Source: Peptococcaceae bacterium (GTDB lineage Bacteria > Bacillota > DSM-12270 > Thermacetogeniales > Thermacetogeniaceae). From it: 45,687 nt of DNA. Positions 13,294-38,637 of this stretch are shown piece after piece. The notes under the pieces were generated by a model, which was given only the letters and a program-made list of their open reading frames with translations, was not told where the DNA came from and made no database searches. Both the position numbers and the translations under genes were made by a program. Numbering within the stretch: position 1 is the first letter of the stretch; every line of letters begins with the position of its first letter. The stretch lies in contig JAHFCR010000014.1 of the NCBI GenBank assembly GCA_023249405.1, forward strand, positions 4,586 through 50,272. The letters are read 5' to 3'.

Positions 13294-14320
13294 TGTTCTG
13301 GCCTCCTTTGATTTCGTGAATAATCAACTGGCTTCTGGCCAGAAAATCGTCCAGCAGGGCGTGAAGATACTCCCGGTAATGACCACCGATCACTCCCCTG
13401 ATCTCCGGAAACGAGGGAAACGCATCCGTTTCCTGGAAAGTAGCCTTCAAAGAGCCCAGGGTGTTTCCCATGATCACAGATTGCAATGGGCTATGATAAA
13501 ACTTGGTATAGGAATAGACAAACCCGGCGGAGGATGCGTCGCCGCAACCGGTGGTGTCCAGCACCGGCCCGATGTCTGTGACAACGGGCACGCTTGCCCA
13601 GTAGGTACGGTTTTCCCTGCGCCAGGCGATCAGGGATGACTGGTTCCCGAAGGTGATCCAACAGGCTTTTAACCCAAGCTCGACTATGCCGGCGGCAAAT
13701 TGGACGAACTCCTCGTATTGTTGCAGGAGGTGGCCGGCCACCCAGGAGGCCTCGCTATCGTTCATTTTCAGGATGTCTATGCAATCGAACCATTCCCGCC
13801 GGGCACCCTCCGGGCGAGGCCAGGCCTGTCCATACCTGACGCCGTCCTTGTCCACCCCTGTTACCAGGCCGTGGGCATCGAGAAAGATCACCGCATCGGA
13901 AGATCTCCTCAACTTTTGAGCGCATTCCAGGGAGAGGTCGGTCTCATTCAAGGGCATCAGCAGCACGGCCGCGCACTCGGCCAGCAGGCCCATTTCAACC
14001 GGGGCCAGAGGAGGCATTACGTTGATCTGGCGGCTTCGGCGGTCTCGTTCATTGCTATAGGCCAGTTCGATCTCTGTTGTGCCGTTATCGCGCGCGGCCA
14101 GGCCGGAAAGGTCGATATTGGGATGGCGCAGCAGGGAATGGACCGCCTCAAAATCAGTTATGGAAAGATGGGACAGGCAGATCGCCTCATCAGCGCTGCC
14201 TTCGAGAAGCTTGGCCATGGCGCTGGCGCTGTAGAATAGAGCCCCGTACTTCTCCACCCTTTTACCCGTCGGAAGAATGATATGATCCTTGGAGATGGGT
14301 CCGGCAATGCCAAACTTCAT
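13220..14320 (-). CDS. PfkB-family carbohydrate kinase
   Basis: A 366-residue ribokinase/PfkB-family protein. The C-terminal signature DTTGCGDASSAGF spans residues 255-267, with the catalytic base Asp261; the usual GAGD is GCGD here, a mild variant. The N-terminal YGGxxxN-type sugar-binding region is replaced by KYGALFYSASAMAK, so the substrate may be unusual. The ATG start has AGAGGTGAG upstream. It is first in a four-gene operon (kinase, glycosyltransferase, nucleotidyltransferase, mutase). Its last 25 residues are encoded inside the start of the next gene. Substrate not assignable. Confidence 0.85.
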   Translation of the reverse strand: MKFGIAGPISKDHIILPTGKRVEKYGALFYSASAMAKLLEGSADEAICLSHLSITDFEAVHSLLRHPNIDLSGLAARDNGTTEIELAYSNERDRRSRQINVMPPLAPVEMGLLAECAAVLLMPLNETDLSLECAQKLRRSSDAVIFLDAHGLVTGVDKDGVRYGQAWPRPEGARREWFDCIDILKMNDSEASWVAGHLLQQYEEFVQFAAGIVELGLKACWITFGNQSSLIAWRRENRTYWASVPVVTDIGPVLDTTGCGDASSAGFVYSYTKFYHSPLQSVIMGNTLGSLKATFQETDAFPSFPEIRGVIGGHYREYLHALLDDFLARSQLIIHEIKGGQNIESFMYHSDGSNSPGADHARDSGG

Positions 14321-14476
14321 ACCCGCTCACCTCTTCTGCAAGCATATTTTTCCGCCAGGGCTAAAATAAATACCCTGCAAAAAAATGCCTTATCTCGAGA
14401 GAGATGGGGCATAGATGGGCAAAGTTCTTACGTAGATGCGCGTAGATCATATCATGGGTTTTTAGCGATCGCGGCG

Positions 14477-14518
14477 TTGACAATGGCCGGCTCTGCTGTA
14501 CAATACAGTAAAGCAGCA
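14477..14518 (+). promoter_or_regulatory. Promoter and likely operator of the toxin-antitoxin operon
   Basis: TTGACA (14477-14482) and TACAAT (14499-14504) are separated by 16 bases. The -10 is embedded in a dyad, CTGTA-caa-TACAG (14495-14507), within a wider CTGCT...AGCAG symmetry. A dyad over the -10 is the usual arrangement for antitoxin autorepression. It sits about 50 bases before the antitoxin start. Confidence 0.65.
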
Positions 14519-14553
14519 TTGCAGAACAGCAGTAACAAATAGGAGTGACAGTC

Positions 14554-14838
14554 ATGGGCCAAGTATTGGGCAATATTATTGTTCAGAAGCGTGGCGTGGT
14601 AAGTCTGGGATTGCTAAAAGAGCATAACATACCATTAAATGATGGGGATATATTCCAAGTGCAATTGGAGGACAGTAAGGTTATTCTTATTCCGATGAAA
14701 CTAATTCCCGCCGATCAGACGTGGTTCTGGGCTAAAGAGTGGCAGGAAGGCGAGAAAGAAGCGGAAGGAGATATAGCCGCCGGAAGGGTTAAATCGTTTA
14801 CAAACGCAGAAGACCTGATAATGGATCTGGACAAATGA
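14554..14838 (+). CDS. AbrB/SpoVT-type antitoxin
   Basis: A 94-residue protein whose N-terminal half (GQVLGNIIVQKRGVVSLGLL and IPLNDGDIFQVQLEDSKVILIP) follows the swapped-hairpin AbrB/MazE fold, a DNA-binding antitoxin domain. The acidic C-terminal half, ending SFTNAEDLIMDLDK, is the expected toxin-neutralising tail. The ATG at 14554 is preferred over the in-frame GTG at 14545 because AGGAG lies at 14541-14545, eight bases from the ATG. Its stop overlaps the toxin start as ATGA. It would bind and block the toxin and repress the operon. Confidence 0.8.
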   Translation: MGQVLGNIIVQKRGVVSLGLLKEHNIPLNDGDIFQVQLEDSKVILIPMKLIPADQTWFWAKEWQEGEKEAEGDIAAGRVKSFTNAEDLIMDLDK

Positions 14839-15086
14839 CATCGTTTTTTAGGACTGAGCGTTTTAAGCGAATGTACAAAAAACTGAATTCAGAACAGCAA
14901 AACTCTATAAAAAGAGACATAGGTTTGATGGCAGGCAATATATACCATCCGTCTTTGAGAGTCAAGCGCATTAAAGGCACTACGGGAATATGGGAAGCGA
15001 GCGCCACTATAGGACTACGAATAACATTTAACCGGGAAGAGGGCGTAATTACTTTAAGAAACTGCGGGGAACACGATAAAACTTAA
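14835..15086 (+). CDS. RelE/ParE-superfamily toxin
   Basis: An 83-residue basic protein with the RelE-fold pattern: FFRTERFKRMYKKLNSEQQNSIKRDI helices, then LRVKRIKGTTGIWEASATIGLRITFNREEGVITLRNCGEHDKT, where the IWEASATIGLRITF strand and the terminal CGEHDK match the conserved end of the YoeB/RelE 'GxHD' group. Known members cleave mRNA at the ribosome. The start codon overlaps the antitoxin stop. Pairing an AbrB-type antitoxin with a RelE-type toxin is seen elsewhere but is not the textbook RelBE arrangement. Immediately downstream is decayed DNA. Confidence 0.8.
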   Translation: MTSFFRTERFKRMYKKLNSEQQNSIKRDIGLMAGNIYHPSLRVKRIKGTTGIWEASATIGLRITFNREEGVITLRNCGEHDKT

Positions 15087-15284
15087 AGAATCCGTGAACA
15101 GCGGTCAGTGCCTTGTGGTAGGTTGACGTTATACGGTCTTAAGCCAAGGTATCCCTATGAGATTCAAATTTTGGATGAAGATATGAAAATAGCTATTATT
15201 GATGCCGACCAGGTAATGAATTTTTTACTTCAAAGACTTCAGATTTCTGAGGAGATTACGCAGAATGTTGAGCAAGATCAGTAG
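15087..15284 (+). pseudogene. Remnant resembling the C-terminus of a HEPN-domain protein
   Basis: The frame ending at the TAG at 15282-15284 reads YGLKPRYPYEIQILDEDMK and continues into an amphipathic helix DADQVMNFLLQRLQI. The YG...RYPYE...A..DA..V..F pattern resembles the end of HEPN-domain proteins of MNT-HEPN modules. There is no start codon or upstream body in this frame beyond the preceding toxin stop, so it would be a 3' fragment. The assignment is by eye and tentative. Confidence 0.25.
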
Positions 15285-15322
15285 GCATATTAAGGATTAT
15301 AAGAATAAAAAAGGGGAAAGCG

Positions 15323-15366
15323 CAAGGCGGCTTCGGGCAGGGACAGCAACCCAGGGCCGCCTTTAT
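15323..15366. terminator. Possible bidirectional terminator
   Basis: GCAAGGCGGC and GCCGCCTT form arms (about 15323-15332 and 15355-15362) around a G/C-rich loop, with an A-rich stretch upstream and TTTATATTT downstream. It lies between the HEPN-like remnant and the end of a possible degraded minus-strand gene, where a shared terminator is expected. Confidence 0.35.
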
Positions 15367-15702
15367 ATTTGGAAGCGCTCGGCCACCTTGATGCCATCCA
15401 ATTCTTTGAGCTTGGAGTGGGTGCCGGCGGTCTTCAACAGTTCATGGATCAGGTCAAGCATCTCCTGCAGCCTGTTCGCCACTTCCAAACTCTTAGTCCT
15501 AAACAAAAAGGTCGGTCTTATAGCCGGGCTCCAACACCTTGCTCAGCCGCTTTGTCCTGAGCAATAAAGGGGCATGCTTGATGGTCTGGACCAGGACGTC
15601 GTAGGAAAGAGACAGGAAAGTACCAATGGGCCAGGCGTTGGCTATCACAAAACTTAACTTATAGCAGGGGATCATGTATAAATCAGCAGAGCGCGTGTTC
15701 AA
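15363..15702 (-). pseudogene. Possible degraded minus-strand gene, unrecognised
   Basis: Two minus-strand frames overlap near 15499: one runs 15702-15499 and ends PGYKTDLFV, the other continues FRTKSLEVANRLQEMLDLIHELLK and ends KVAERFQI at 15363. The second has a convincing amphipathic helix, which suggests a single gene split by a frameshift. I do not recognise the family and the start is unclear. The rest of 15087-15851 shows no intact gene; it holds only a small hairpin (CCGGG-aactaa-CCCGG near 15720). Confidence 0.2.
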
Positions 15703-15851
15703 GATATTGAGTGTGGCAGCCGGGAACTAACCCGGGGCGTGACTTTATAGAGAAGGATTTTAGAAGAAAAAATCAAATAATTATAGCTATGCGAGGTCAC
15801 ATTTTATCCTTTTAACATGAATTCAAGAGGGCGATTAAAACGAATGACAGG

Positions 15852-17438
15852 ATGATACTCTCGATGCTGTTACAGGCACTGCCGCTCCTAGCTGCGGTGA
15901 CTGAAGGCTTTGCTACGGTGACCGATGATGGCGGCCGACGCCTGAGAACTGTCAATTCCAAGGGCGAGGAACTTGAGGAGTATAGAGATTCTGTTTACGA
16001 TTTGGCTAAGGAAAGCGCCCGATTGCAACAGGCAATGATTGGTCCGTCGCAAATCGTCGAGAGCGCCCTGGCCTGGACTGTTCCGATTGGCGCTTATGTT
16101 TTGAGTTGCAGCAATGTGGAACGCGCAAAGCGTGAAAAGAGTTTGCAGAAATCTTTGGAGAAGGCGCTGCCTTTAATTGCCAATGTTGTAGGTGGAGAGT
16201 CGGTCCTGTTCGACCGAGAAGGAAAGCGGCTGGCTAGCTATAATCCTAACGGAACGATCAATAAACAATTTTTGCACAAGATTAGCGATTATGCAAAGCG
16301 GGCCATGGAGACCGATGAGGCGGTGATCGACGAATCCTTCTCTTTCGGAGGCGCCATGGCGGTGCGTATTCCTATCACGCATGCATTCGGGCTCGGCTTT
16401 AACAACGAGCTGACAGCGAAGAAGAGCAAGAAGCTGATGGAAGAGGTTCAAAAATTTCAGTATGCCCGCTACTCCTTCAGCGACATCGTGGGTGAGCATG
16501 AAGCGATCACCAGGGTGATCCACCAAGCTGAACAGATCGCCGATGGAAATTCGACAGTGCTTATCTACGGCGAAACAGGCACCGGGAAGGAATTGTTTGC
16601 GCAGTCGATTCATAATGCCAGCGAGAGGAGAAACAAACCGTTCGTTGCCATCAATTGCGGCGCTCTTCCCGTATCCCTGATCGAGAGCACGCTATTTGGC
16701 TATGTCGACGGCGCCTTTACCGGTGCGAAGAGGGGTGGAGCACCGGGGGCCTTTGAAATGGCTGATCGAGGAACAATTTTTTTGGATGAAATCAGTGAGA
16801 TGGAACTCAACCTGCAGTCCAAACTGCTGCGTGTATTGCAGGAGAGGGAGGTGACCAGGATTGGCGGTAGCAAACCGCTTTGGGTCGATGTCAGGGTGCT
16901 CGCTTCAACGAACAAGGACATGGGAAAATTGGTGGCTGGCAACAAGTTCCGTAATGACCTGTATTTCAGACTGAATGTGGTGCAAGTTAATGTGCCGCCA
17001 CTGCGGGACCGGATTTCGGATATACCACTGCTGACGGACAATTTTATTCGTAAATATAATCCATTGCTTGGCAAGTATGTCCTGGAAGCTGACCAGGAGA
17101 CCCTGACTGTCATGCAGGACTATACTTGGCCGGGAAACATCAGGGAACTGCAGAATTGCGTTGAGCATGCTCTCAACATGGTCGAAAGAGACCAGCAGAC
17201 GATTATGCTCCATCATTTGCCGCCTTACATCCGGCAAAAAAACGGGATCTCCTCCAGGGGCGAAAGGGTTTACTGTCCCGGTATAACTTTGGCAAGTATC
17301 ATGCTGGAGACCGAACGCCAGGTGATCGAGACGGCTTTGCAGAAGGCGAATGGGAAGAGGAAAGAGACAGCGAAGATGCTCGGGATCAGCATGACCACCC
17401 TGTGGCGTAAAATGCAGACCCTGAATCTGGGTGCTTGA
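15852..17438 (+). CDS. Sigma-54-dependent transcriptional activator, likely regulator of the nicotinate operon
   Basis: A 528-residue bacterial enhancer-binding protein. The sensory N-terminal region (about 1-205) is not a standard receiver; it contains AVTEGFATVTDDGGRRLRTVN and a second segment GESVLFDREGKRLASYNPNG that look like PAS/GAF-type sensor modules, suggesting a small-molecule signal. The AAA+ domain has Walker A GETGTGKE (240-247), the sigma-54 contact loop GAFTGA (287-292), Walker B TIFLDEIS, and the R-finger region. A Fis-type helix-turn-helix ends the protein (GKRKETAKMLGISMTTLWRKMQ). The start is uncertain: ATG 15852 has a weak Shine-Dalgarno and ATG 15864 is an alternative. 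It lies just before a perfect -24/-12 promoter for the nicotinate genes, so it probably activates them. Confidence 0.88.
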   Translation: MILSMLLQALPLLAAVTEGFATVTDDGGRRLRTVNSKGEELEEYRDSVYDLAKESARLQQAMIGPSQIVESALAWTVPIGAYVLSCSNVERAKREKSLQKSLEKALPLIANVVGGESVLFDREGKRLASYNPNGTINKQFLHKISDYAKRAMETDEAVIDESFSFGGAMAVRIPITHAFGLGFNNELTAKKSKKLMEEVQKFQYARYSFSDIVGEHEAITRVIHQAEQIADGNSTVLIYGETGTGKELFAQSIHNASERRNKPFVAINCGALPVSLIESTLFGYVDGAFTGAKRGGAPGAFEMADRGTIFLDEISEMELNLQSKLLRVLQEREVTRIGGSKPLWVDVRVLASTNKDMGKLVAGNKFRNDLYFRLNVVQVNVPPLRDRISDIPLLTDNFIRKYNPLLGKYVLEADQETLTVMQDYTWPGNIRELQNCVEHALNMVERDQQTIMLHHLPPYIRQKNGISSRGERVYCPGITLASIMLETERQVIETALQKANGKRKETAKMLGISMTTLWRKMQTLNLGA

Positions 17439-17446
17439 AGTGGATG

Positions 17447-17460
17447 TTTCATTGTTGAAA
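17447..17460. promoter_or_regulatory. Candidate upstream activating site 1
   Basis: TTTCA-ttgt-TGAAA is a dyad nine bases after the activator stop and about 330 bases before the -24 element. A second copy with the same arms and spacing lies 99 bases downstream. Paired dyads at this distance are typical of sigma-54 activator sites. An 11-base direct repeat AGGCATTGCAA (17460-17470 and 17505-17515) is also present here. Confidence 0.5.
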
Positions 17461-17545
17461 GGCATTGCAATACTGATATTGTTTTTATACCCAGTTAAAG
17501 AGACAGGCATTGCAACGGATTATTCAAGATACAGTGCTGTGAACA

Positions 17546-17559
17546 TTTCAAAACTGAAA
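17546..17559. promoter_or_regulatory. Candidate upstream activating site 2
   Basis: TTTCA-aaac-TGAAA repeats the arms of the site at 17447-17460 exactly, with a different four-base centre. It lies about 230 bases upstream of the sigma-54 promoter. The conservation of arms but not centre argues for protein binding rather than chance. Confidence 0.5.
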
Positions 17560-17764
17560 TGATCAATGCAGCGCTTGGATCTAGAAATCGTTGGCGGAGA
17601 CTCCACCAGAGGGTACCCGTCTTCATAGGCGGCGTTGCTATGCCCGCTTCCGCGGGCTGACGTGGAGCGAGGTATTAGCCAACCCACATTAGTCAGTACC
17701 ATAGATTTTTTGTGGAGATATGACCGCCGGTTACAAACTGATTAATTGGCAGTATGCCTGATTT

Positions 17765-17781
17765 CCCGTATTTGATACGGG
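17765..17781. promoter_or_regulatory. Dyad next to the sigma-54 promoter
   Basis: CCCGTAT-ttg-ATACGGG is a perfect 7-base inverted repeat ending about ten bases before the -24 GG. It could be an operator or a short hairpin. No T tract immediately follows the hairpin stem as in a standard terminator, although GTTATTTTTTT comes after it, so a terminator for the activator gene cannot be excluded. Confidence 0.45.
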
Positions 17782-17789
17782 TTATTTTT

Positions 17790-17806
17790 TTGGCATGCCT
17801 CTTGCA
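17790..17806 (+). promoter_or_regulatory. Sigma-54 (-24/-12) promoter of the nicotinate operon
   Basis: TTGGCATGCCTCTTGCAA has GG at 17792-17793 and GC at 17804-17805, exactly 12 bases apart, matching the TGGCAY-N5-TTGCW consensus. Transcription would start near 17817, leaving a leader of about 375 bases before enamidase. The adjacent sigma-54 activator gene makes this a convincing assignment. Confidence 0.85.
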
Positions 17807-17834
17807 ACAATAATATTTTTATAACTGCCCAGGT

Positions 17835-17862
17835 CGGACTTCAGTCTGCAGACTGAAGTCCG
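17835..17862. repeat. Perfect 28-bp palindrome in the operon leader
   Basis: CGGACTTCAGTCTG is followed at once by its exact reverse complement, giving a 28-bp palindrome without a spacer. It begins about 18 bases downstream of the predicted sigma-54 transcription start, so it would lie at the 5' end of the mRNA or act as a DNA operator. The rest of 17863-18192 shows no gene; only short unconvincing frames are present. Confidence 0.85.
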
Positions 17863-18192
17863 GGTGTCTGAACGGCAGGGCATCTGTTTTTTAAAACAGG
17901 AGATGGCGGTGGAAATGCAGGGTTGAGATGCCGGCAAGAAAAGTCAATACAATACTAAAGGATGAAAGAAAGAGTTAACCGTATCAATGGGGGACATGCT
18001 TATTATGCGGCTGGATAGATTACCAGTAGCGCTCTTTCATTGTATGCTGCTTGCTATCAATGGATCATCGTGGGCATTTGATGCATTTGACACCGGATTG
18101 ATAACCTTTAAGGCCTTTTAACGAAGGCCTTTCACGCCATGGCAACAGCAGGGCGGTGCAATTTATGAACAACAACCAAAGGGAGTGACAAT

Positions 18193-19350
18193 ATGGCAAC
18201 AGCAATCAGGAACATTGGTGTGATCGTGAGTGGAGATGTCGAACATCCAGTGCTGGAAGGCGATACGATTATCGTCGACGAGGGCAAAATAGCCGCGATC
18301 GGCGGCGCCGACACTGCCAAAGGATACCAGATAGACAAGACGGTGGATGCCGGTGGCGCCACAATGATACCGGGGCTGATCGACTCCCACGTCCATCTGG
18401 TGCTTGGAGATTTCACGCCGCGCCAGAATACCTTGGGCTACCTGGAAGGAGAATTGCATGGCGGCGTGACCACCGTGATCTCGGCGGGAGAATGTCATGC
18501 TCCGGGCAGGCCGAGGGATCCAGCGGGGGTGAAAGCCCTGGCCATTTTAGCGCACAAGAGCTTCGACAATTTCCGGCCCTGTGGACTCAAGATTCATGGT
18601 GGTGCCCTGATTTTGGAAAAGGGCCTGACGGAGAAGGATTTCGATGAGTTGGCTGCCGCAGGGGTGTGGCTGGTCGGCGAGATTGGCCTGGGCACTGTGA
18701 ATACTCCGGCGGATGCCGCTCCTATGGTGCGCTGGGCCAAGCAGCGGGGGATGAAAGTGGCCATGCATACGGGTGGCACCTCGATCCCCGGCAGCTCCAC
18801 GGTCACGGCGGAAATGGTAATGAAGACTGATCCCACGGTGGTATCCCACCTCAACGGAGGGCCCACTGCAGTATCTCTGGCGGAAGTCGACAAGTTGATT
18901 GACAACTCGGACCTGGTGCTGGAGATAGTTCAGTGCGGCAATCCCCGCGTCGCGGATTATGCCGTCCGCAAAGTGGCGCAAAATGGCCAGTTGGGCCGGA
19001 TTATCCTGGGCAATGACATGCCTTCGGGAACCGGTATTATCCCATTGGGCATTCTGAGAACGTTGGTACAGTTATCGTCCGTATCAGGAATTCCTGGGGC
19101 GAAAGCGATTGCCATGGCCAGCGGTAATACCGCTAGAGTGTTTGGCCTGAACACCTCCATGATAGCGGAGGGCCGGGATGCCGATCTGGCGGTGATCGAC
19201 GCCCCGATGGGGTCGGTGGGGCAGAATGCGCTGGAAGCGATCGAGGCTGGCGACCTGCCGGCGGTGGCCATGGTGATGACGGATGGTGTGGTCAGAATCA
19301 CCAAGAGTAGAAATACACCGCCCCCGACCAGAAAGATTAGGATATCTTGA
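18193..19350 (+). CDS. ena: Enamidase (6-oxo-1,4,5,6-tetrahydronicotinate hydrolase)
   Basis: A 385-residue amidohydrolase-superfamily enzyme. It matches enamidase of the Eubacterium barkeri nicotinate pathway, which opens 6-oxo-tetrahydronicotinate to 2-formylglutarate and ammonia. Metal and active-site motifs are in order: DSHVH (His66, His68), VGEIGLG (Glu163), AMHTGG (His192), SHLNGG (His219) and GNDMPSG (Asp275). The N-terminal small beta domain (VLEGDTIIVDEGKIAAIGG) and the C-terminal strand return (EGRDADLAVIDAPMG) are complete. The ATG is preceded by AAAGGGAGTGAC. It is the first gene after the sigma-54 promoter. The specific call rests on both sequence and the downstream pathway genes; another cyclic enamide substrate is possible. 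Confidence 0.85.
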   Translation: MATAIRNIGVIVSGDVEHPVLEGDTIIVDEGKIAAIGGADTAKGYQIDKTVDAGGATMIPGLIDSHVHLVLGDFTPRQNTLGYLEGELHGGVTTVISAGECHAPGRPRDPAGVKALAILAHKSFDNFRPCGLKIHGGALILEKGLTEKDFDELAAAGVWLVGEIGLGTVNTPADAAPMVRWAKQRGMKVAMHTGGTSIPGSSTVTAEMVMKTDPTVVSHLNGGPTAVSLAEVDKLIDNSDLVLEIVQCGNPRVADYAVRKVAQNGQLGRIILGNDMPSGTGIIPLGILRTLVQLSSVSGIPGAKAIAMASGNTARVFGLNTSMIAEGRDADLAVIDAPMGSVGQNALEAIEAGDLPAVAMVMTDGVVRITKSRNTPPPTRKIRIS

Positions 19351-19397
19351 CCAGGCATGCCGGATGGTGACGCCGATGATGAGCGTAGATAAGAGCT

Positions 19398-19860
19398 ATG
19401 CAGGGGATTCGGAGCCTGTGCCAGGGATTGCCCATTGGGAGCTTCACCAAGGGTATTGCTACGGCGGCGGTGGTATTGGGGAGCAACTGCCGAAACGCCG
19501 ACGTCTGCGCCACCCTAGTCGGCAATCACACCTTCAGCCCCGATCCGGGTATCAGGCAGATACTGGCTGAAGAGATCGACCCCGCCGCCGATATCCGGGG
19601 GCACCTGATAACGGCTGCAATCGGGCAACTGGCGCCGGCCAACGGAGTGGCCGAGGCGAGGTTGCCGCTCGGACGGGGGGCTGATCCTGGGTGCGATCGT
19701 CTTTGTAGGAGCGCTCACGAAAGCGGTGCCTGATGACCTCGGGATGCAGGTTCAATCTGTCGCAAGAGGTGTGACGGAATGGAATGACCTTGAAGAGGCT
19801 TGTCGGAAACACATAAAAAAATCACGAGAGGAACGTTATAATGGCACAGTCAAAACCTGA
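19398..19860 (+). pseudogene. Unrecognised ORF apparently broken by a frameshift in a G run
   Basis: One frame from ATG 19398 reads GSFTKGIATAAVVLGSNCRN and continues to LPLGRG near 19676. There, at a run of six G (19675-19680), good coding character switches by one base to the frame LILGAIVFVGALTKAVPDDL, ending EERYNGTVKT at 19858-19860. Removing one G would fuse the two into a protein of about 150 residues. The second part overlaps the start of the next gene, as coupled genes in this operon do. Whether it is a true mutation or a sequencing error is unknown. I do not recognise the family. It fills the 490-base gap between enamidase and the DUF1185 gene. Confidence 0.5.
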
Positions 19861-20434
19861 AATTCGCAAAGTCTACACCATGGTCGAGGAAATACGCGCC
19901 GATGGCGTCCGGGTGTTGGATCGGCCACATCACAAAGCGGCTGCCGCCGCAGTGTTTAAGAATCCGTATGCCGGTGTCTACCAGGAGGATCTCAGCCTGC
20001 TCTACACCTGGAGCGAAGAGTTGGGTGAAATGCTGACGAAACGGGCGGTGGCTGCGCTGGGCATCGAACCGAAGCAGGTGGAAAGTTACGGTAAAGCCGT
20101 TATCGTCGGCGAGAAGGGCGAATTGGAACACTGCGCCGCTCTGATGCATCCGTCTTTAGGAAAGCTGATGCGGGACAACGTCGGCGGCGGCAAGGCGATC
20201 ATCCCCTCAGCCAAAAAGCTGGGCTACCCCGGTGCCGCCATTGACGTGCCGCTGCATTTCAAGAACGCCGCCTTTGTACGCTCCCACTTCGATGCCATGG
20301 AGGTTCGTCTGCCGGATGCGCCCAGGGCCGATGAACTGGTATTGATCGTGGCCGTGACTGATTCCGGACGGCCGTTCGCCAGAGTTGGCGGCCTGAAAGT
20401 TGAAGAGGTCAAGGGAGAGGACGGGCTGCACTAG
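19841..20434 (+). CDS. DUF1185 ('amino acid synthesis') family protein
   Basis: A 197-residue protein of the DUF1185/AA_synth family, recognised from NPYAGVYQEDLSLLYTWSEELGE, the ESYGKAVIVGEKGELEHCAALMHP segment, GGGKAIIPSAKKLGYPGAAIDVPL and VRSHFDAMEVRLPDAPRADE. The family has no firmly established reaction to my knowledge; members often lie with genes for ring-opening or amide hydrolysis. GAGAGGAACG precedes the ATG. Here it sits between enamidase and 2-(hydroxymethyl)glutarate dehydrogenase, so a role at the 2-formylglutarate stage (hydrolysis assistance, tautomerisation or ammonia-related chemistry) is a reasonable but untested inference. Confidence 0.8.
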   Translation: MAQSKPEIRKVYTMVEEIRADGVRVLDRPHHKAAAAAVFKNPYAGVYQEDLSLLYTWSEELGEMLTKRAVAALGIEPKQVESYGKAVIVGEKGELEHCAALMHPSLGKLMRDNVGGGKAIIPSAKKLGYPGAAIDVPLHFKNAAFVRSHFDAMEVRLPDAPRADELVLIVAVTDSGRPFARVGGLKVEEVKGEDGLH

Positions 20435-20469
20435 GAGCAGCGGCGGTCGTGATGCAGGAGGGATCTGGA

Positions 20470-21357
20470 ATGCAGGTTGGTTTGATTGGAATCGGCGCCA
20501 TGGGCGGGCCGATGGCGGTGAATCTCTGCCAGGCCGGCTTCGACCTCGCGGTCTATGATGTCAATGAAGAGGCGGTGCGACGGCTGACGGCGCAGGGAGC
20601 GACGGCAGCGGCGACTCCCAAGGAACTGGCCAAGGTATCCGAAGTAGTGATCACCATGCTGCCCAATTTCCAGATCGTATCGTCGGTCATGGAGGGAACA
20701 GATGGAGTGCTGTCGGGAATTAGGGATGGGTCGCTCGTGATCGACATGAGCACGGTGGCCCCCTACCAAGCCCGGGCTATGGCTGCGCAAGCTGCACAGC
20801 GGGGGGCGGCCTATCTGGATGCCCCCGTGAGCGGTGGTGTGGCCGGAGCGAAGCAGGGCACGCTGACCATCATGGTCGGAGGCTCTGACGAGACGGTCGA
20901 TCGGGCGATGCCCATCTTTGGAGTTTTGGGCAGGAAAGTTTACCGGGTAGGGGATGTGGGATCCGGGGCGGCGATCAAGCTGGTCAACAACCTGCTGCTG
21001 GGAGTGAACACTGCGGCCGTCGCTGAAGCCCTGGTACTGGGTGTGAAAGCCGGATTGAACCCCAGGGTGCTGCTGGATGTCATCCGTTCGAGTTCAGGCG
21101 ACAGCTACGCCCTGAAGGCCAAGGCGGACGTCTTCATTTTAGAGGGTAAGTTTGAGCCGGGGTTTGCCATCGACTTGCAGTACAAGGATCTGGAACTGGC
21201 GGCCCAGACAGGCAAGGAACTGGGAGTGCCCCTGTTCATGACCGGTCTGGCGCAACAGTTGTTCGAACAGGCGCGAGCGGCGGGTCTGGGCTCCAAGGAT
21301 ATCTCGGCGGTGATCAAGCCGTTGGAAAAGCTGATCGGTGTTGAGGTCAGGGGCTAA
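20470..21357 (+). CDS. hgd: 2-(hydroxymethyl)glutarate dehydrogenase
   Basis: A 295-residue beta-hydroxyacid dehydrogenase. The N-terminal Rossmann motif GLIGIGAMGGPMA binds NAD(P)H; the substrate motif DAPVSGGVAGAKQGTLTIMVGG is complete, and the catalytic lysine is Lys170 in GAAIKLVNNLLLG. The family includes 3-hydroxyisobutyrate dehydrogenase, glyoxylate/tartronate semialdehyde reductases and the nicotinate-pathway enzyme Hgd, which reduces 2-formylglutarate to 2-(hydroxymethyl)glutarate. Context favours Hgd. The ATG at 20470 follows GGAGGGATCT; an in-frame GTG at 20449 is less likely. It lies 35 bases after the DUF1185 gene and 12 before hmd. Confidence 0.83.
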   Translation: MQVGLIGIGAMGGPMAVNLCQAGFDLAVYDVNEEAVRRLTAQGATAAATPKELAKVSEVVITMLPNFQIVSSVMEGTDGVLSGIRDGSLVIDMSTVAPYQARAMAAQAAQRGAAYLDAPVSGGVAGAKQGTLTIMVGGSDETVDRAMPIFGVLGRKVYRVGDVGSGAAIKLVNNLLLGVNTAAVAEALVLGVKAGLNPRVLLDVIRSSSGDSYALKAKADVFILEGKFEPGFAIDLQYKDLELAAQTGKELGVPLFMTGLAQQLFEQARAAGLGSKDISAVIKPLEKLIGVEVRG

Positions 21358-21369
21358 CTAGCGATAGGG

Positions 21370-22806
21370 GTGATGGTGGTGGACGGAGCAATGCAACTGG
21401 CGATCTCCAAAGGATTCGACCCTCGGGCGCTGACACTGGGGGAAACATTGGAACTGGCCGCGGAACTGAAACTCCCGGTCAGCGATGTGGTGATCGCCGA
21501 GGCCGGGAACAGGGACGGGCTAACTCCGTCAGAGGTGCTGGATGCGGTGGAGAAAGCCTTCGAACATAACTTGCAGGCGCTGGAAACCGGCCTCACCACA
21601 GGCAGCAGCTTCCTGTTCGGGACCGTGGCCCAGGAACTGGCAGAGCACGATTTCGGAAAGAAGCTCTTCGAAGACGATTTTATCAACCGGGCGCTGGTCT
21701 ACACGCTGGCGGCACAGATCGGAAATCACACCGTGGGGCTCAATCCCTGCGCCGGGACCGGTGATGCCTGTCCCTACACGGGATTGCTCAGGGCGATCAT
21801 GGAAACTGAGGATCGGGAGCAGGCGTTGCGGGCAGCGGCAGTGATGCTGAAGGTGGGCACCATGTTCCAGGCCGGCAAAACCACCACGGGTTGCAACATG
21901 GAGGGGCTGGGAGCCGGGGCGGCGGCTGTGGCTGCTGCCTTGGTGGAGCTTGGAGGCGGCAGCCCGGCAACGCTGGGTAGGGCGGTTGTGCTGGCTCTGT
22001 CACCTACTATTGCCGTGCCCTGCACGCCGCGGGTGATGGTGGCGGGATTGTGCGCCACTCATATCGGCGTCGCCATTCTGGACGGCGCTCTGGCAGCCAG
22101 GCTGGCCCTTCTGACCAATATTCCGGTGATGGTGCCGGTGGATGTGATGATTGCCATGGCCGGGGCGGTGCATCCGATTTCGGCGGACTCTGTGGTTCCG
22201 GTGGTGATCGAATATCTGCAGCCCTTTTTTAAGGTCAACCCCCAGGTAGAAGCATATACCGATTCCCAGGCTAAAAGCCAGGAGGCGGCGGCAACTATCC
22301 GGAGCACGACCAAGGCGCGGGACGAAGCCCGGTGTCTGGCTCGTACCGCCAACCCCATCACTGCCCCCTTTGGGGAGGTCGTGGTTGGCGGCAGTAGCCA
22401 GGCCGTAGGGTCGCCGGCCAATGCCGCCCGGATTGCCCACGAGCTTGCCCGGGGCCGCATTACCAGGGTGATTGTGGAATTGGCACCCGAACTCTTTGTG
22501 CGCCGCGGCATCAATGTGCCGTCCATTCTGATGGCTGCCGTGTATGGGGCGCATACCGGAGACAGCGCTATGTATGGACAAGTGATGGACCGGCTGCAGA
22601 GCCGGGAAGTGGCGATAGAAGTGGTGAAGGCGGCGCTGCCCCATTTGCAGAGGATTACCATCGAAGCAACAGAAGGCGGTTCCATGGTGGACGCTTTCAA
22701 CCAGGGTGGTGGGCGCCTGATCATCAGGGATGCCAGGCCGAGCCGCGCCGAGGCGCTGGCTGCTGCCAAGCGGTTGAACATCGTGGTCGTCAGTGAGAAA
22801 GAATGA
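21370..22806 (+). CDS. hmd: 2-(hydroxymethyl)glutarate dehydratase, [4Fe-4S] serine dehydratase-like
   Basis: A 478-residue protein related to iron-sulfur L-serine dehydratases. Residues about 10-300 form the alpha-type catalytic domain with NPCAGTGDACPYTG (Cys127, Cys134), TTTGCNMEGLGAG (Cys175) and CTPRVMVAGLCATH (Cys218, Cys228), supplying ligands for an oxygen-sensitive cluster. The C-terminal part (about 330-478) resembles a separate small domain with GSPANAARIAHELARGRITRV. In E. barkeri, Hmd dehydrates 2-(hydroxymethyl)glutarate to 2-methyleneglutarate and is of this type. The start is uncertain among GTG 21370, ATG 21373 and ATG 21391. A 36-codon frame with coding character (AAGAQIVVAGTVVVVTGTIG) overlaps its 3' end in the +1 frame. 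Confidence 0.82.
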   Translation: MMVVDGAMQLAISKGFDPRALTLGETLELAAELKLPVSDVVIAEAGNRDGLTPSEVLDAVEKAFEHNLQALETGLTTGSSFLFGTVAQELAEHDFGKKLFEDDFINRALVYTLAAQIGNHTVGLNPCAGTGDACPYTGLLRAIMETEDREQALRAAAVMLKVGTMFQAGKTTTGCNMEGLGAGAAAVAAALVELGGGSPATLGRAVVLALSPTIAVPCTPRVMVAGLCATHIGVAILDGALAARLALLTNIPVMVPVDVMIAMAGAVHPISADSVVPVVIEYLQPFFKVNPQVEAYTDSQAKSQEAAATIRSTTKARDEARCLARTANPITAPFGEVVVGGSSQAVGSPANAARIAHELARGRITRVIVELAPELFVRRGINVPSILMAAVYGAHTGDSAMYGQVMDRLQSREVAIEVVKAALPHLQRITIEATEGGSMVDAFNQGGGRLIIRDARPSRAEALAAAKRLNIVVVSEKE

Positions 22807-22903
22807 CCGATCATCCAGGGCCGCCGGGGCGCAGATTGTTGTCGCCGGGACGGTAGTGGTAGTGACGGGAACTATCGGTACGGTCTTCGAAACGCTGGCT
22901 TGA
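22793..22903 (+). CDS. Short overlapping ORF after hmd, uncertain
   Basis: A 36-codon frame from GTG 22793 to TGA 22903 overlaps the last codons of hmd in the +1 frame and reads RAAGAQIVVAGTVVVVTGTI near its middle. It could be a tiny gene, a frameshifted C-terminal extension of hmd, or chance in GC-rich DNA. No Shine-Dalgarno is evident. It fills the space before the mutase. Confidence 0.2.
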   Translation: MRKNDRSSRAAGAQIVVAGTVVVVTGTIGTVFETLA

Positions 22904-22918
22904 GGTGGGTGATCGACA

Positions 22919-24832
22919 ATGCCAGGGCAGACCTCGGAATCGGAAAGTGAGGGAAACACAGTGCAGGAAAAGACGAAGCAGATGATCAGGGATGATTATG
23001 ATTACGTCCGTGCTTATGCCAGGGTGTTCAGAGTGGAGATGCCGCTGGTTGCCAATGATGAATCGATAACGGGCTTACCAGGGCCGTACCCCAGACAGGT
23101 GGCCGGCGTGGTCCGGGATGGCCACCGGATTGCAGCGCTGGGGCGCAGGGCGCGGGAGACCGGAATGCCGGTGTTGAATCCCATCCTGGGGAGAAACACT
23201 GCGCCCGAAACCTACGAGCAGAGCCAGGATATGTACAAGGTAGCCGCAGACCTGGGAATTACCATCTTTCATTTCGTGCACTCCGAGGCGACCCGCCATA
23301 TCGATCCCTTGGACGGCGAGGAACTGATTGAACAGTCCAGGGGCAAGGGGGGAATTACTCCCGGCGGGGAGCGGGAGTTTGTAGCTATGGGCGGTGGGTC
23401 AGTGCACCCGGTGCGGATCAACGCCACCGGCGATACTCCGTACCTGTCGATTATCAATGCCCTGATCGCCGGATTCGACGGTACGGATATCGGGCCGGTG
23501 ATCCATGCCCATTTTGGAGGCCGGGGCATCAAGGATTACCGCACCAAGATCGTCAACGGATTCAAGGCGCTGCAGATCTGCGCCGAAAACAATATTTTTG
23601 TCCAGGTGGAGTCTCACAAGCATCTCAACAATATCGGGGGTACCGACGGGATGGCCCTTGCCATGTGCCTGCTGGCGGAGGGTTTGGCCGTGCTGGCCGG
23701 CCTGCCCAGGGAATTGAGCGCCCTGCAGATGAATGTGGCCGGTATCAATTTGCTGGCCGATCTGGCCGTTATGAGGGCCTTCAGGCAATGTATGTGGAGT
23801 GAACATTTGATCGTTGTTCCCGAAACATTTCAACAGCCCCCAACCGATCTGGTGGCAGAGCAGGGCCATTTTGCCAGGATGGCTCTCAGCGCCAGGCTGG
23901 GAGGGGCAAATTTCTACCGTCCTAAGGCTGCCGAGGCGATAGGTATTCCGACGGGGTATTCCATGGGCCGGGCAATCTGGGCCAGCCAGAACATCTTTGA
24001 AAATGTGGCTTTCATCGACATCCAGGATCCGGCCATCAGCAGGCGCCGGAACGAGATTATCACTGAAGCCATGGCGGTGCTGCGGGTAGCGCTGAGTTTG
24101 AACCGGGAGCTTGATCCGGCGGAGATCAACCCTGCTTTCTGGGGCCGTTACGAAGTCGAGCAATTGGTGGCGGCAATCGTAGATGCTGGCAAGTCGGGAG
24201 TGCTGGACTGTCCTCAAGCGGCGGGCTGGGACCTGAAGAGAGGCGTGCGGACCAACCGCGATCCGGATGGAATCCGCCGCTACGTGCCAGGGTTTGGACC
24301 TGTTAAAATCCCTCTGGAAAAATTGGCCTTCACGAGTGAGCCGGTTACGGTTAGCCGGCCGCAACAGATCACCAGACCGGGGAAGATTCTCCTGGCGACG
24401 GTGGGAGCGGATGCTCACGTGCTGGGCATCAACCAGATTAAAGAGGCGTTCGAAAAAGCGGGCCATGAAGTCATCTTTTTAAGGGGGATGAACCTGCCGG
24501 AGACAGTGGCCGAGGTGGCGGCCGAGGCTGGAGTCGATGTGGTGGGTGTGAGCAATCTACTGGGTTTGGGGATCGAGCTGTTTCCCAGAGTCAGGCAGCG
24601 TCTATCAGAGTTGGGACTGGCAGAGACAATCATCGTCATTGCTGGCGGCAGAATTGCCGAGAAGGAAGAAGACATGGATTCCTACCGGTATAAAATTCTG
24701 GATCAAGGACCCGGCTTTTTAAATGTCGACGGCTTCTTCGGGCCGGGAACGGAACCTGATGAGGCAGTGGCTTGGGTGGAGCAAAAACTTCAACAGCGGG
24801 GGATGAATAAGGTTGAGCCAGCAAAAAATTAA
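22919..24832 (+). CDS. mgm: 2-methyleneglutarate mutase, adenosylcobalamin-dependent
   Basis: A 637-residue B12-dependent carbon-skeleton mutase. The C-terminal cobalamin-binding domain starts near 485 ([16 protein letters not shown]) and carries the base-off/His-on motif DxHxxG as Asp498, His500, Gly503, followed by GVSNLLGLG and VIAGGRI. The large N-terminal part is a TIM barrel with [13 protein letters not shown] and [18 protein letters not shown]. It converts 2-methyleneglutarate to 3-methylitaconate, a radical rearrangement known from the nicotinate pathway. ATG 22919 has GAGGTGG upstream; GTG 22961 after GAGGGAA is an alternative start that would remove 14 residues. The gene overlaps mii by 20 bases. 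The surrounding genes make methyleneglutarate much more likely than glutamate as substrate. Confidence 0.87.
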
Positions 24833-25952
24833 CTGCTGTATCATGAGAGGCGGTACCAGCAAGGGGATATTTTTTCACGAGCATGATCTTCCAGCCGATC
24901 AGGCGGCTAGAGATCGGCTGGCGCTCAAGGTGTTCGGAAGTCCGGACGTGAGGCAGATCGACGGCCTGGGCGGCGCGGATCCTCTGACCAGCAAGATGGC
25001 GATTATAGCCAAGTCGAAGCGTCCGGATGCCGATGTGGATTACACCTTCGGACAGGTCAGCATTGAGCGGCCACTGGTTGATTACTCGGGGAACTGCGGT
25101 AACATCTCTTCGGCAGTGGGGCCCTTTGCCATCGCCGAGGGTCTGGTGCCGGCGGTGGAGCCGATCACCAGGGTTCGTATTTACAATAAGAACACCGGCA
25201 AGATCCTGATTGCCGAAGTACCTGTATCTGGAGGCAACGTGCAGGTTGAGGGGTCGTACGAGATTGACGGGACGCCCGGAACCGGTGCCAAAATACTCAT
25301 GGACTTCGCCGGCACGGTCGGGTCTGCCACCGGCGAGATGCTGCCTACAGGCAGGCCGAAGGATCTGCTGCAGGTCGAGGGCGTGGGAGCGCTGGAGGCA
25401 TCAATCGTGGATGTAGCCAATCCGGTCGTCTTTGTAAGGGCAAAGGATCTGGGACTGACCGGTATCGAGACCCCGGCGGATATTGACAGCAATGCAGATT
25501 TGCTGGCAACTCTCGAGCGCATCCGGTCTCTGACTGCGGTGATGATCGGCATGGCCACATCCCCGGAGGAGGCAACATCCAAGTGCCCGGCCTTCCCGAT
25601 GGTCGCCTTCGTGAGCGCGCCGCGTGATTATCGGGCTTTTTCCAGCGGGCGCATGGTGCTCCAGCAGGATGTCGACTTGGTATCCAGGCTGATGTACATG
25701 CAGGTGATGCACAAAACATACGCCGGAACGGGAACTACGTGCACCGGGGCGGCTGCCAGAATTCCCGGCACTATCGTCAACGAAGTATGCGCCGGTGACG
25801 GTCCAGTGGTCCGGATCGGGCATCCCTCGGGAGTGATTGAGATTGAGGTGGGCATCGCTTGCCAGAATGGGATGGTCGTGCTTCAGCGTGCGGCTTTTGG
25901 ACGGACGGCCAGGCGCATCATGGATGGCCGTGTTTATGTGACATCCGACTGA
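24813..25952 (+). CDS. mii: 3-methylitaconate delta-isomerase, PrpF family
   Basis: A 379-residue PrpF-family protein with the diaminopimelate-epimerase-like double hot-dog fold. The N-terminal [20 protein letters not shown] is the family hallmark, and [17 protein letters not shown] carries the likely catalytic Cys95. Mii shifts the double bond of 3-methylitaconate to give 2,3-dimethylmaleate. The TTG start at 24813 is supported by a purine-rich GGGGGATGAATAAGG upstream and lies inside the end of mgm. Position directly after the mutase supports the methylitaconate substrate rather than the methylaconitate of the 2-methylcitrate cycle; no prp genes are nearby. Confidence 0.87.
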
Positions 25953-26055
25953 GGCAAAGAGCAGGATCACAAAGCAGCGCAAGGTGTCGGTTATATTGTG
26001 GTGAGATCTCGGACAACGGCCACCTAAAGCGCGACTGAAGCAAGGAGGTTTCAGG

Positions 26056-27525
26056 ATGCAGAGCATTGTGGCGCAAGGCACTTGCCTGATGATCTACGAC
26101 CTAGGGAGCACTTTTACAAAGGTCACCGCCTTTACTTTAAAAGACGGGGATCTGGTTTTCACTGGCCGGTCACAAGCGCCGACAACGGTAGACAATATTG
26201 TGATCGGGATGCAGAATGCACACTATAATCTCCTCAATGCCTTGGATGTCAAAAGTATGCAGAGCGACGAGACATATGCTACCAGCAGTGCTGCCGGAGG
26301 GCTGCGCATGGTGGCCATGGGCTACATGCCCAGAGTTACAGCCAAGGCTGCCAAGGAGGTGGCCATGAGTGCCGGCGCTAGGGTGCTGGAGATCGTCTCC
26401 TATGAAGATGAGCCCGGGTTTAAAATTGAAGTGCTGCAGGAGATCAAACCGGATATTATCCTGCTGGCTGGCGGTACGGATGGAGGAGACCAGGATTCGA
26501 TGGTGCACAACGCTGGCGTGATCCTGGAGAGTAAGATCGATACAGCGGTCATCGTTGCCGGCAATGTGGATGCACAGGCCAGAATCGGGCAGATCCTGGA
26601 AAGCGGCAATGTCAAAGTCGTCAGAGTTCCCAACGTGATGCCTACCATTCATCAACTGAATGTCAGACCGGCCCGTCAAGCCATCCATGAGCAGTTCATC
26701 CGCCAGATTACCAGGGCCGGCGGGCTCCGCAAGATCAGCGAGACCGTCAGCAACGGGAAGGTACTGCCAACGCCAGGGGCAGTGTTGATGGGCGCCGAAC
26801 TGCTGGCGCTGGGCGTCGATGGTCTTGACGGGGTGGGAGACCTGCTGCTGGTTGATGTGGGAGGGGCGACGACGGATGTCCATTCGGTGCTGTTCTCCCT
26901 GCAAGACATTCCGGATGAGGAAAAAGGGCTGATCGTAAGCAACGAGAAGCAGGCGCTGTACCGTACCGTAGAGGGCAATCTGGGCGTCAGGATCAGCGCC
27001 GGCGGAATCTTGGACACTGCGGGGCCGGCATTGATATTGCGCCAAGTGGATCTCGCCGGATCCGATTTAGAACAACAATTGTGCAATTATGCAGCTTATC
27101 TGGAGAAGAATCCGGATCATATCAGTACCATCGATACGGAGCAATTGTTCGACGAGGGATTGACAATAACTGCTCTGCAGATTGCTCTCAAGCGCCACGT
27201 CGGGTACTTGTCCCGGGAATACGATCCGGTGGCGGGGATAGCACCGGGAACTCCCGTTGGGCGGGACTTGAGAAAAGTGTCCCGGGTTGTCGGAGTAGGA
27301 GGAGTGTTCACGCATTCAGATTATGGCAAGGCGGTCAGGATCTTGACCAGAGCGCTGGCGAACCCCGGCTGGTCGCTACTGCCAAAGCAGCCGGAACTGA
27401 TCATTGACAACGATTACCTGATGTATGCCATAGGTGTTTTAAGCCAGATGTATCCGGCAGCGAGCCTACGGTTTGCCAAGCGCTATCTCAAGCTGGAAGA
27501 TGGAGGAACAGGAAATGAATGCTAG
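26056..27525 (+). CDS. MutL/GlmL-like ASKHA protein, putative reactivase of the B12 mutase
   Basis: A 489-residue protein of the GlmL/MutL family, found beside glutamate mutase and other B12 enzymes. ATPase signatures of the actin/Hsp70 fold are visible: phosphate-1 DLGSTFTK (residues 15-22), ILLAGGTDGGD, and phosphate-2 LLLVDVGGATTDVHS. By analogy with diol dehydratase reactivases it may restore mutase carrying damaged cobalamin, but GlmL biochemistry is not firmly established. An excellent AGGAGG precedes the ATG. It begins about 100 bases after mii and its last 11 bases overlap dml, so it belongs to the pathway operon. Its natural client here would be 2-methyleneglutarate mutase. Confidence 0.82.
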   Translation: MQSIVAQGTCLMIYDLGSTFTKVTAFTLKDGDLVFTGRSQAPTTVDNIVIGMQNAHYNLLNALDVKSMQSDETYATSSAAGGLRMVAMGYMPRVTAKAAKEVAMSAGARVLEIVSYEDEPGFKIEVLQEIKPDIILLAGGTDGGDQDSMVHNAGVILESKIDTAVIVAGNVDAQARIGQILESGNVKVVRVPNVMPTIHQLNVRPARQAIHEQFIRQITRAGGLRKISETVSNGKVLPTPGAVLMGAELLALGVDGLDGVGDLLLVDVGGATTDVHSVLFSLQDIPDEEKGLIVSNEKQALYRTVEGNLGVRISAGGILDTAGPALILRQVDLAGSDLEQQLCNYAAYLEKNPDHISTIDTEQLFDEGLTITALQIALKRHVGYLSREYDPVAGIAPGTPVGRDLRKVSRVVGVGGVFTHSDYGKAVRILTRALANPGWSLLPKQPELIIDNDYLMYAIGVLSQMYPAASLRFAKRYLKLEDGGTGNEC

Positions 27526-28390
27526 AAAGAAACTACGACAGCTAATGAGCCGCCCCGGGATTTTGGTGGCGCCGGGCGCCCATGATGCGCTGACGGCCAA
27601 AATTATTCAGCAGGTCGGATTCGATGCCGTTTATCTGACAGGCTATGGGCAGGCTGCCAGCACTCTGGGGCAGCCGGATGTCGGGTTGCTGACCATGACG
27701 GAAATGGTTACGAGGGTTCATAATATCGCCGGGGCCGTGGATGTGCCCGTGATCTGTGATGCAGACACCGGTTTCGGCAATAGTCTGAACGTGATGCGCA
27801 CAGTCCGGGAATACGAGGCGGCCGGGGCGGCGGCGATCCAGATTGAAGACCAGGTGATACCCAAGAAATGCGGGCATATGACCGGCCGTCAGGTGGTGCC
27901 GACTGAGGAGATGGTGGACAAGATCAGGGTTGCCGTTGCCGTCAGAACCGATCTCGATCTGATGATCATCGCCCGTACCGATGCCAGAACATTGCTTGGC
28001 ATGGAAGAGGCGATCGCCAGGGGCAAGGCCTATGAGCAGGCGGGAGCGGACATTATCTTTGTGGAGTCTCCGGAATCGGTGGCGGAGATGAAAATGATCA
28101 CTTCTAGCTTTAAGGCGCCTGTGCTGGCTAACATGGTGGAAGGCGGACGGACGCCGCTACTGGATGCTGCAGAACTGGAACAACTTGGTTATAGCCTGGT
28201 GATCTTCCCTACAGCCTCGACCTACGTCATAGCCGACGCTGTGCGGCATTTGATGCTGGAGTTGAAACAAACAGGCACCACCAAGCACATGATAGATCGG
28301 ATGATTTCTTTTGAAGAGTTCAACGGCCTGCTGGGACTGCCGCGTATCAGGGAGATCGAGAAAGGCAACTACAGCATGCTGAAGGCTTGA
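27515..28390 (+). CDS. dml: 2,3-dimethylmalate lyase, isocitrate lyase/PEP mutase family
   Basis: A 291-residue isocitrate lyase-superfamily enzyme. The signature KKCGHMTGRQVVP has the active-site Cys119; DADTGFGN supplies metal-binding aspartates and FVESPES the later barrel strand. In nicotinate fermentation Dml splits 2,3-dimethylmalate to propionate and pyruvate; methylisocitrate lyase, oxaloacetate decarboxylase and carboxyphosphonoenolpyruvate mutase are related alternatives. The pathway context favours Dml. The ATG at 27515, with GGAGG upstream, is preferred over an in-frame ATG at 27473 that lies deep in the preceding gene. This is the last pathway gene on this transcript; no clear terminator follows directly. 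Confidence 0.83.
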   Translation: MNARKKLRQLMSRPGILVAPGAHDALTAKIIQQVGFDAVYLTGYGQAASTLGQPDVGLLTMTEMVTRVHNIAGAVDVPVICDADTGFGNSLNVMRTVREYEAAGAAAIQIEDQVIPKKCGHMTGRQVVPTEEMVDKIRVAVAVRTDLDLMIIARTDARTLLGMEEAIARGKAYEQAGADIIFVESPESVAEMKMITSSFKAPVLANMVEGGRTPLLDAAELEQLGYSLVIFPTASTYVIADAVRHLMLELKQTGTTKHMIDRMISFEEFNGLLGLPRIREIEKGNYSMLKA

Positions 28391-28737
28391 TGGCAGGGCG
28401 AAAAAGTGAAGGAGCGCAGCCAGACGTTGCACAGGGAAGATGACACGGCATAAGCAAATAAAGTCATTAAGCCGGGGTCATCATAAAATGAGCGTACGCC
28501 GAAGTTTAAAGGTTACGTAAGCGCAACTCTTTTGGGCCAGAGACGTTACTGGGCATACGGCTATGGCCGCTTCCCGACAGCAGAGAAGGAGCCGGGCAAA
28601 CAGCAATGGCAAGAAAATGGCGCCAGAAGAAGCGATGGAATAAAAAGCAATACTGAAGTGAGAGATCCGATAGTTAAATCGCCAAATAAAGGATATAGCG
28701 ATATTATCTGGTATGACTTACGTGAATACTGTAGGGA

Positions 28738-38463: not shown

Positions 38464-38490
38464 AAAACCCCTGAGATTCAGGGGTTTTTC
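38464..38490 (+). terminator. Rho-independent terminator of the AcoR-like gene
   Basis: AAAACCCCTGA (38464-38474) and TCAGGGGTTTT (38478-38488) are perfect arms with a three-base loop, followed by a T run. It directly precedes the next promoter. Confidence 0.85.
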
Positions 38491-38491
38491 T

Positions 38492-38508
38492 TTGGCATGG
38501 GTTTTGCT
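38492..38508 (+). promoter_or_regulatory. Sigma-54 (-24/-12) promoter of the Lrp-like/acyl-CoA synthetase operon
   Basis: TTGGCATGGGTTTTGCT has GG at 38494-38495 and GC at 38506-38507, exactly 12 bases apart and in good agreement with consensus. The start would be near 38519, about 120 bases before the first ATG. The upstream sigma-54 activator is the obvious regulator. Confidence 0.8.
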
Positions 38509-38637
38509 GTATTAAAAAGCATCGTCGACGCAAGAAGAACGAAATACCTCATGGAGGAGTGACGCTCAGACACAACAACTTGGCTAGCAACTCGGCGGTA
38601 GGCAATAAAACAAGAGAAGAAAAGAGGGCTAAACCAA

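Follow-up and report, generated by a model that had tools for sequence, protein, structure and literature searches.

A perfect spacerless palindrome downstream of a predicted sigma-54 promoter in a Peptococcaceae genome

The activator, its predicted sites and the operon front

The window analysed here is a 45,687-nucleotide stretch of the genome of a Peptococcaceae bacterium (contig JAHFCR010000014.1). It carries the gene for a sigma-54 enhancer-binding protein, two predicted sites for this activator, a sigma-54 promoter, a perfect palindrome and a catabolic operon whose first genes are in part relics (Table 1).

Table 1. Features of the locus, and other spacerless palindromes of the same genome
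Feature	Position	Strand	Remarks
Sigma-54 enhancer-binding protein, presumed operon activator	15852..17438	+	Sigma54_activat and Fis-type HTH
Upstream activator site 1, TTTCATTGTTGAAA (predicted)	17447..17460	+	TTTCAN4TGAAA
Upstream activator site 2, TTTCAAAACTGAAA (predicted)	17546..17559	+	TTTCAN4TGAAA
Terminator-like hairpin, then T-rich run	17765..17781	+	Probably the end of the activator transcript; weak
Sigma-54 promoter, TTGGCATGCCTCTTGCA	17790..17806	+	GG-N10-GC; start inferred at about 17817
Inferred transcribed leader, 376 nt	17817..18192	+	From promoter position and next ORF start; start inferred
Perfect spacerless 28-bp palindrome	17835..17862	.	As RNA, 12-bp stem with UGCA loop; one copy in genome
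Relic ORF, 44 codons, MFS transporter N-terminus	17987..18121	+	Matched part 18008-18109; rest of gene missing
Amidohydrolase, enamidase-like, first intact operon gene	18193..19350	+	PF01979, 4.8e-15; 80% identical orthologue in G016
Second gene relic, C-terminal part	19422..19661	+	tblastn 60% over 87 residues, 2e-26
Other spacerless perfect palindromes, 28-58 bp	L066:14718-14747; L113:4558-4587; L060:8786-8813; L094:624-681		Same genome

The activator matches Pfam families PF00158 (Sigma54_activat, 1.2e-67) and PF02954 (HTH_8, 7.5e-13), and the genome also encodes a sigma-54 factor (PF04552, E 1.2e-54, in a 467-aa ORF). The promoter TTGGCATGCCTCTTGCA fits the GG-N10-GC core within TTGGCAYN5TTGCW. 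Transcription from sigma-54 promoters usually starts 12 bases after the GC element, and the start was placed at about 17817 on the basis of this distance. Terminator-like hairpins were found at two sites, against 0.7 expected in shuffled sequence. Elsewhere in the window, a second activator gene (36417-38408) precedes a terminator-like hairpin and the sigma-54 site TTGGCATGGGTTTTGCT (38464-38509), beyond which lies a gene at 38638. Two small overlapping ORFs at 14545-15086 resemble, on inspection by eye, a toxin-antitoxin pair but have no Pfam match.

Orthologues of the activator, identified with its first 202 residues as query, are present in 11 of 398 genomes of the phylum, including this one, and all 11 are among the 19 genomes that carry an enamidase-like gene. 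The motif TTTCAN4TGAAA was first spotted by eye in the window and at loci L007 and L013, out of a set that also included L017. It occurs only twice in the window (TTTCATTGTTGAAA and TTTCAAAACTGAAA; 0.03 expected) and twice in a further 735,754 bases of the genome. In the 220 bp behind each of the 11 activator orthologues (11 x 220 bp) there are 15 such sites, compared with none in 200 shuffles; at least one lies within this distance in 10 of the 11, the exception being G127. This count of 11 includes two genomes of one genus, G214 and G307, with identical sequence behind the activator. A sigma-54 site was recognised by pattern behind nine of the 11 orthologues, again including the present one, the promoters of G214 and G307 being unmatched. 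From these comparisons, activator, TTTCAN4TGAAA sites and sigma-54 promoter appear to form a module that is well supported by conservation. The TTTCAN4TGAAA sites of the window and of loci L143-L151 and L033 possibly mark an undescribed sigma-54 regulon for nicotinate-type catabolism. Long inverted repeats at L033:7108-7142 and L034:565-606 contain TTGCA and TGAAAT half-sites, and suggest that the predicted activator site is longer than TTTCAN4TGAAA.

The operon comprises an amidohydrolase, a hydroxyacid-type dehydrogenase, a B12-binding mutase-like protein, a PrpF-like isomerase and a PrpB-like lyase; enamidase, 6-hydroxynicotinate reductase and nicotinate pathway are names applied here to this type of operon. 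Its leader appears to include the first 40 or so codons of a lost MFS transporter. This relic matches transporter N-termini in 8 of 61 genomes, including its own (E <= 0.01; best foreign match 3e-9), as well as plasmid records annotated 'MFS transporter', and shares 50% identity with a 455-aa ORF across 34 residues. Being a very short piece, it has no match in Pfam or NCBIfam, and its best matches in the PDB are unrelated proteins at non-significant scores. The second relic corresponds to a 285-aa protein that follows a ferredoxin-like reductase gene in G016, a relative of the same family, where the gene order is amidohydrolase, 522-aa reductase-like protein and 285-aa protein; positions 14000-28500 of the window contain no match to the 522-aa protein. 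The two relics suggest internal deletions or an assembly collapse within the operon, and since a match to the reductase-like protein is missing as well, either the operon front would have lost genes or the assembled sequence would have collapsed there. NiaR was considered as a candidate for binding the palindrome, as MFS transporters and nicotinate are involved.

Form, folding and distribution of the palindrome

The palindrome, CGGACTTCAGTCTG/CAGACTGAAGTCCG, has two 14-base arms (17835-17848 and 17849-17862) that are 100% complementary, with no spacer and no mismatch, exactly as described in a first-pass annotation made from the sequence. It spans about +19 to +46 relative to the inferred start, so that the position of +18 given in that annotation is correct within the error of start inference. 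The sigma-54 context it gave was likewise right: the promoter is well supported and linked to an activator, and the palindrome falls inside the inferred transcribed leader. Two simple assignments were discarded. The activator sites lie upstream and have a different motif, which speaks against the palindrome as an activator binding site, and the sequence directly 3′ of it, GGTGTCTGAA, provides no T run after the stem as an intrinsic terminator would require; the terminator scan did not list it.

Folded alone as RNA, the 28-mer forms 12 pairs closed by a UGCA loop (-19.9 kcal/mol, z -6.0), and these pairs have a mean probability of 0.997 in the full leader. The stable stem begins about 18 unpaired bases in from the inferred 5′ end, and the remaining leader up to the MFS relic (17863-17986) shows no unusual structure (z +0.3). 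Depending on window size, 225, 73 and 363 of 1000 shuffles of the flanks folded as well as the real ones; an extension of the stem by flanking pairs was discarded, having been reached by the 225 shuffles obtained for 17817-17880. Rfam covariance models gave no match at gathering score in the window, and the weak matches over the palindrome were far below the cut-off.

Spacerless palindromes with arms of at least 14 bases are expected 0.003 times per 781 kb of independent-base sequence. A sample of 781,441 bases, made up of the window and 60 stretches from elsewhere in this genome, contains five, including the present one, with arms of 14, 14, 15, 15 and 29 bases. Of the remaining four, one falls within the trigger-factor gene, two lie within ORFs with Pfam matches under the curated cut-off (Acyl_transf_3 and Bro-N), and the one with 29-base arms sits in an ORF that has no other support. 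As a control, 400 kb of another genome from the same family yielded one (arms of 17 bases), plus two with arms of 13. The first-pass statement that such a palindrome is very unlikely by chance is thus true of random sequence, but it misleads when applied to this genome. The palindrome exceeds chance, yet so do others located in genes; since equally long examples occur elsewhere in the genome, even in trigger factor, form alone does not show regulation, and symmetry is weak evidence of it.

No further copy of the palindrome at up to 3 mismatches was found in the 3.57-Mb genome, and a single arm, at up to 1 mismatch, has no match beyond the palindrome's own two arms. A dispersed or REP-type repeat, the outcome that the first-pass annotation had named as refuting its proposal, is ruled out by these two results. 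Across the phylum (398 genomes searched at up to 3 mismatches) the genome itself was the sole match, the palindrome being absent from the 397 others. At the DNA level nothing in the 19 other genomes of the family matches the leader region 17780-18200; with the present genome they make a set of 20, and searches at order and class level returned the same 20. Viral contigs contain no match to the exact inner 26 bases, and comparison of 17800-18000 with plasmids and phages gave only short matches (E 0.2-0.6; one plasmid record, two phage records), with no convincing relative among them.

The leaders of orthologous operons were compared by folding the first 60 nt past the inferred start at the nine loci with a pattern-matched promoter, G214 and G307 being left out. 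The present leader reaches -26.6 kcal/mol (z -3.7), and the other eight range from z -2.0 to +1.2, none with such a hairpin. In G016 the activator (about 65% identical), a site and a promoter are all present, and the leader of about 120 nt is without the palindrome. By this comparison the palindrome stands outside the conserved activator/promoter module and does not constitute a conserved second layer of control. The first-pass annotation stands as to position and promoter context, but the 'second layer of control' that it proposed finds no support in conservation, which extends to the promoter but not to the palindrome.

Interpretation of the palindrome

The best explanation, which we hold tentatively, is that the palindrome is a lineage-specific inverted repeat that is transcribed, forms a hairpin and is passive. 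As conservation indicates, the adjacent enhancer-binding protein would switch the operon on from the TTTCAN4TGAAA sites, and the palindrome would be copied into RNA and, by computation, fold as a 12-bp hairpin. Template switching is a source of perfect inverted repeats, and the palindrome probably arose locally, for example by this process at a shorter imperfect repeat; it would not have been built as an operator. Any action would be passive and at the level of RNA, the stem near the 5′ end perhaps slowing 5′-to-3′ decay of the long leader. Some points weigh on the other side. Among the 19 other family genomes no closely related leader turned up with which the arms could be compared. The excess of five palindromes over the 0.003 expected counts against this explanation, and 14 of 14 intact pairs in a leader are also what selection would keep.

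It is possible, if doubtful, that the hairpin is instead a selected one, which stabilises the message or pauses polymerase in the manner of the 5′ stem-loops of some bacterial mRNAs. Position and strength fit, given a stem of 12 bp from about +19 that stays paired in the whole leader, and in this respect the 5′ RNA hairpin suggested by the first-pass annotation has a plausible form; the other reading in that annotation, a repressor operator, is without positive support. Against selection, the hairpin is missing from the orthologous leaders that were folded, and its flanks lengthen the stem no more than chance would. Classical mRNA-stabilising stems are 5′-terminal (the references of PMC7509114 include a 1992 paper by Emory with '5′-terminal stem-loop' as title), unlike the present stem with its unpaired lead. 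Stabilising stem-loops in 5′ UTRs are nevertheless documented (PMC7509114).

A DNA operator is unlikely. Here a pair of repressor dimers on two tandem 14-bp dyads, CRGACT-NN-AGTCYG, would block polymerase leaving the sigma-54 promoter. Such a role would account for the perfect spacerless two-fold symmetry, which is unneeded at the loop of an RNA hairpin, and the position downstream of the start fits a roadblock. Each arm comes close to being a dyad (CGGACT-TC-AGTCTG), which allows the palindrome to be taken as a tandem pair of 14-bp sites, and in direct orientation the arms are identical at 10 of 14 positions; the self-pairing of the arm, however, was equalled by 1047 of 20000 arm shuffles. 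The pattern CRGACTNNAGTCYG recurs only once in the genome, at a position within an ORF, and a reversed control pattern also occurs once. Recurrence of the operator at other targets or at orthologous promoters was not found in the genome or in the 397 others of the phylum, related genomes lack a copy, and the 17 window proteins scanned (10 + 7) included no recognised one-domain repressor. That two fused CRGACTNNAGTCYG sites at +19 would let a putative repressor stop polymerase coming from the activator-driven promoter seems to us improbable; if true, the operon would need both activation and release of the roadblock. The 14 bases GGTTGAGATGCCGG, at about 17924, are shared with a contig C35 locus close to the other CRGACTNNAGTCYG. 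This identity was dropped: the sequence has two exact copies in the genome, the other being just past an unrelated gene.

A scar, in which the 14-bp ends of an excised insertion or miniature element are fused and flanked by a 3-bp duplication, is very unlikely, as the GGT on either side of the palindrome (a weak hint, such a match being expected 1 in 64) and the truncation of the neighbouring MFS and second genes are set against an arm and a palindrome that do not recur in the genome and the poor results from viral contigs, plasmids and phages described above. The ends of a resident insertion element were also rejected, the genome containing no element with this arm.

On the preferred reading of a passive, lineage-specific repeat, the locus is a warning that even where a textbook would place an operator, a perfect palindrome can belong to a single lineage, and the equally long palindromes inside genes of the same genome sharpen this point. 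The firmer result is the conserved combination of activator, TTTCAN4TGAAA sites and sigma-54 promoter before nicotinate-type catabolic operons, which represents a testable regulon.

Comparison with known systems

The arrangement resembles the Clostridiales regulons of sigma-54 and enhancer-binding proteins, as far as these are set out in the main text of PMC6615313. There too the activator gene adjoins its target operon, the activator has a Fis-type HTH, and several activator sites lie 5′ of a promoter that fits the consensus TTGGCATNNNNNTTGCT. The present locus differs in having TTTCAN4TGAAA before a nicotinate-type operon, since neither 'nicotin' nor 'TTTCA' occurs in that main text, which likewise describes no downstream palindrome ('palindrom' is found 0 times).

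With the mRNA-stabilising 5′ stem-loops of ompA and others, as covered in PMC7509114, the palindrome shares a stable hairpin in the 5′ leader. It differs from them in the roughly 18 unpaired bases that come first, in not being conserved, and in being a predicted structure.

Repeated extragenic palindromes (PMC8266576) are similar in being palindromic and lying between genes, but they exist in many copies and the present element in one. The perfect inverted repeats reported from genomes in PMC13155455 have perfect arms like those found here. In bacteria these repeats exceed chance, mostly have 4-base spacers and are strongly enriched after transcript ends, whereas the palindrome described here is spacerless and lies in a leader.
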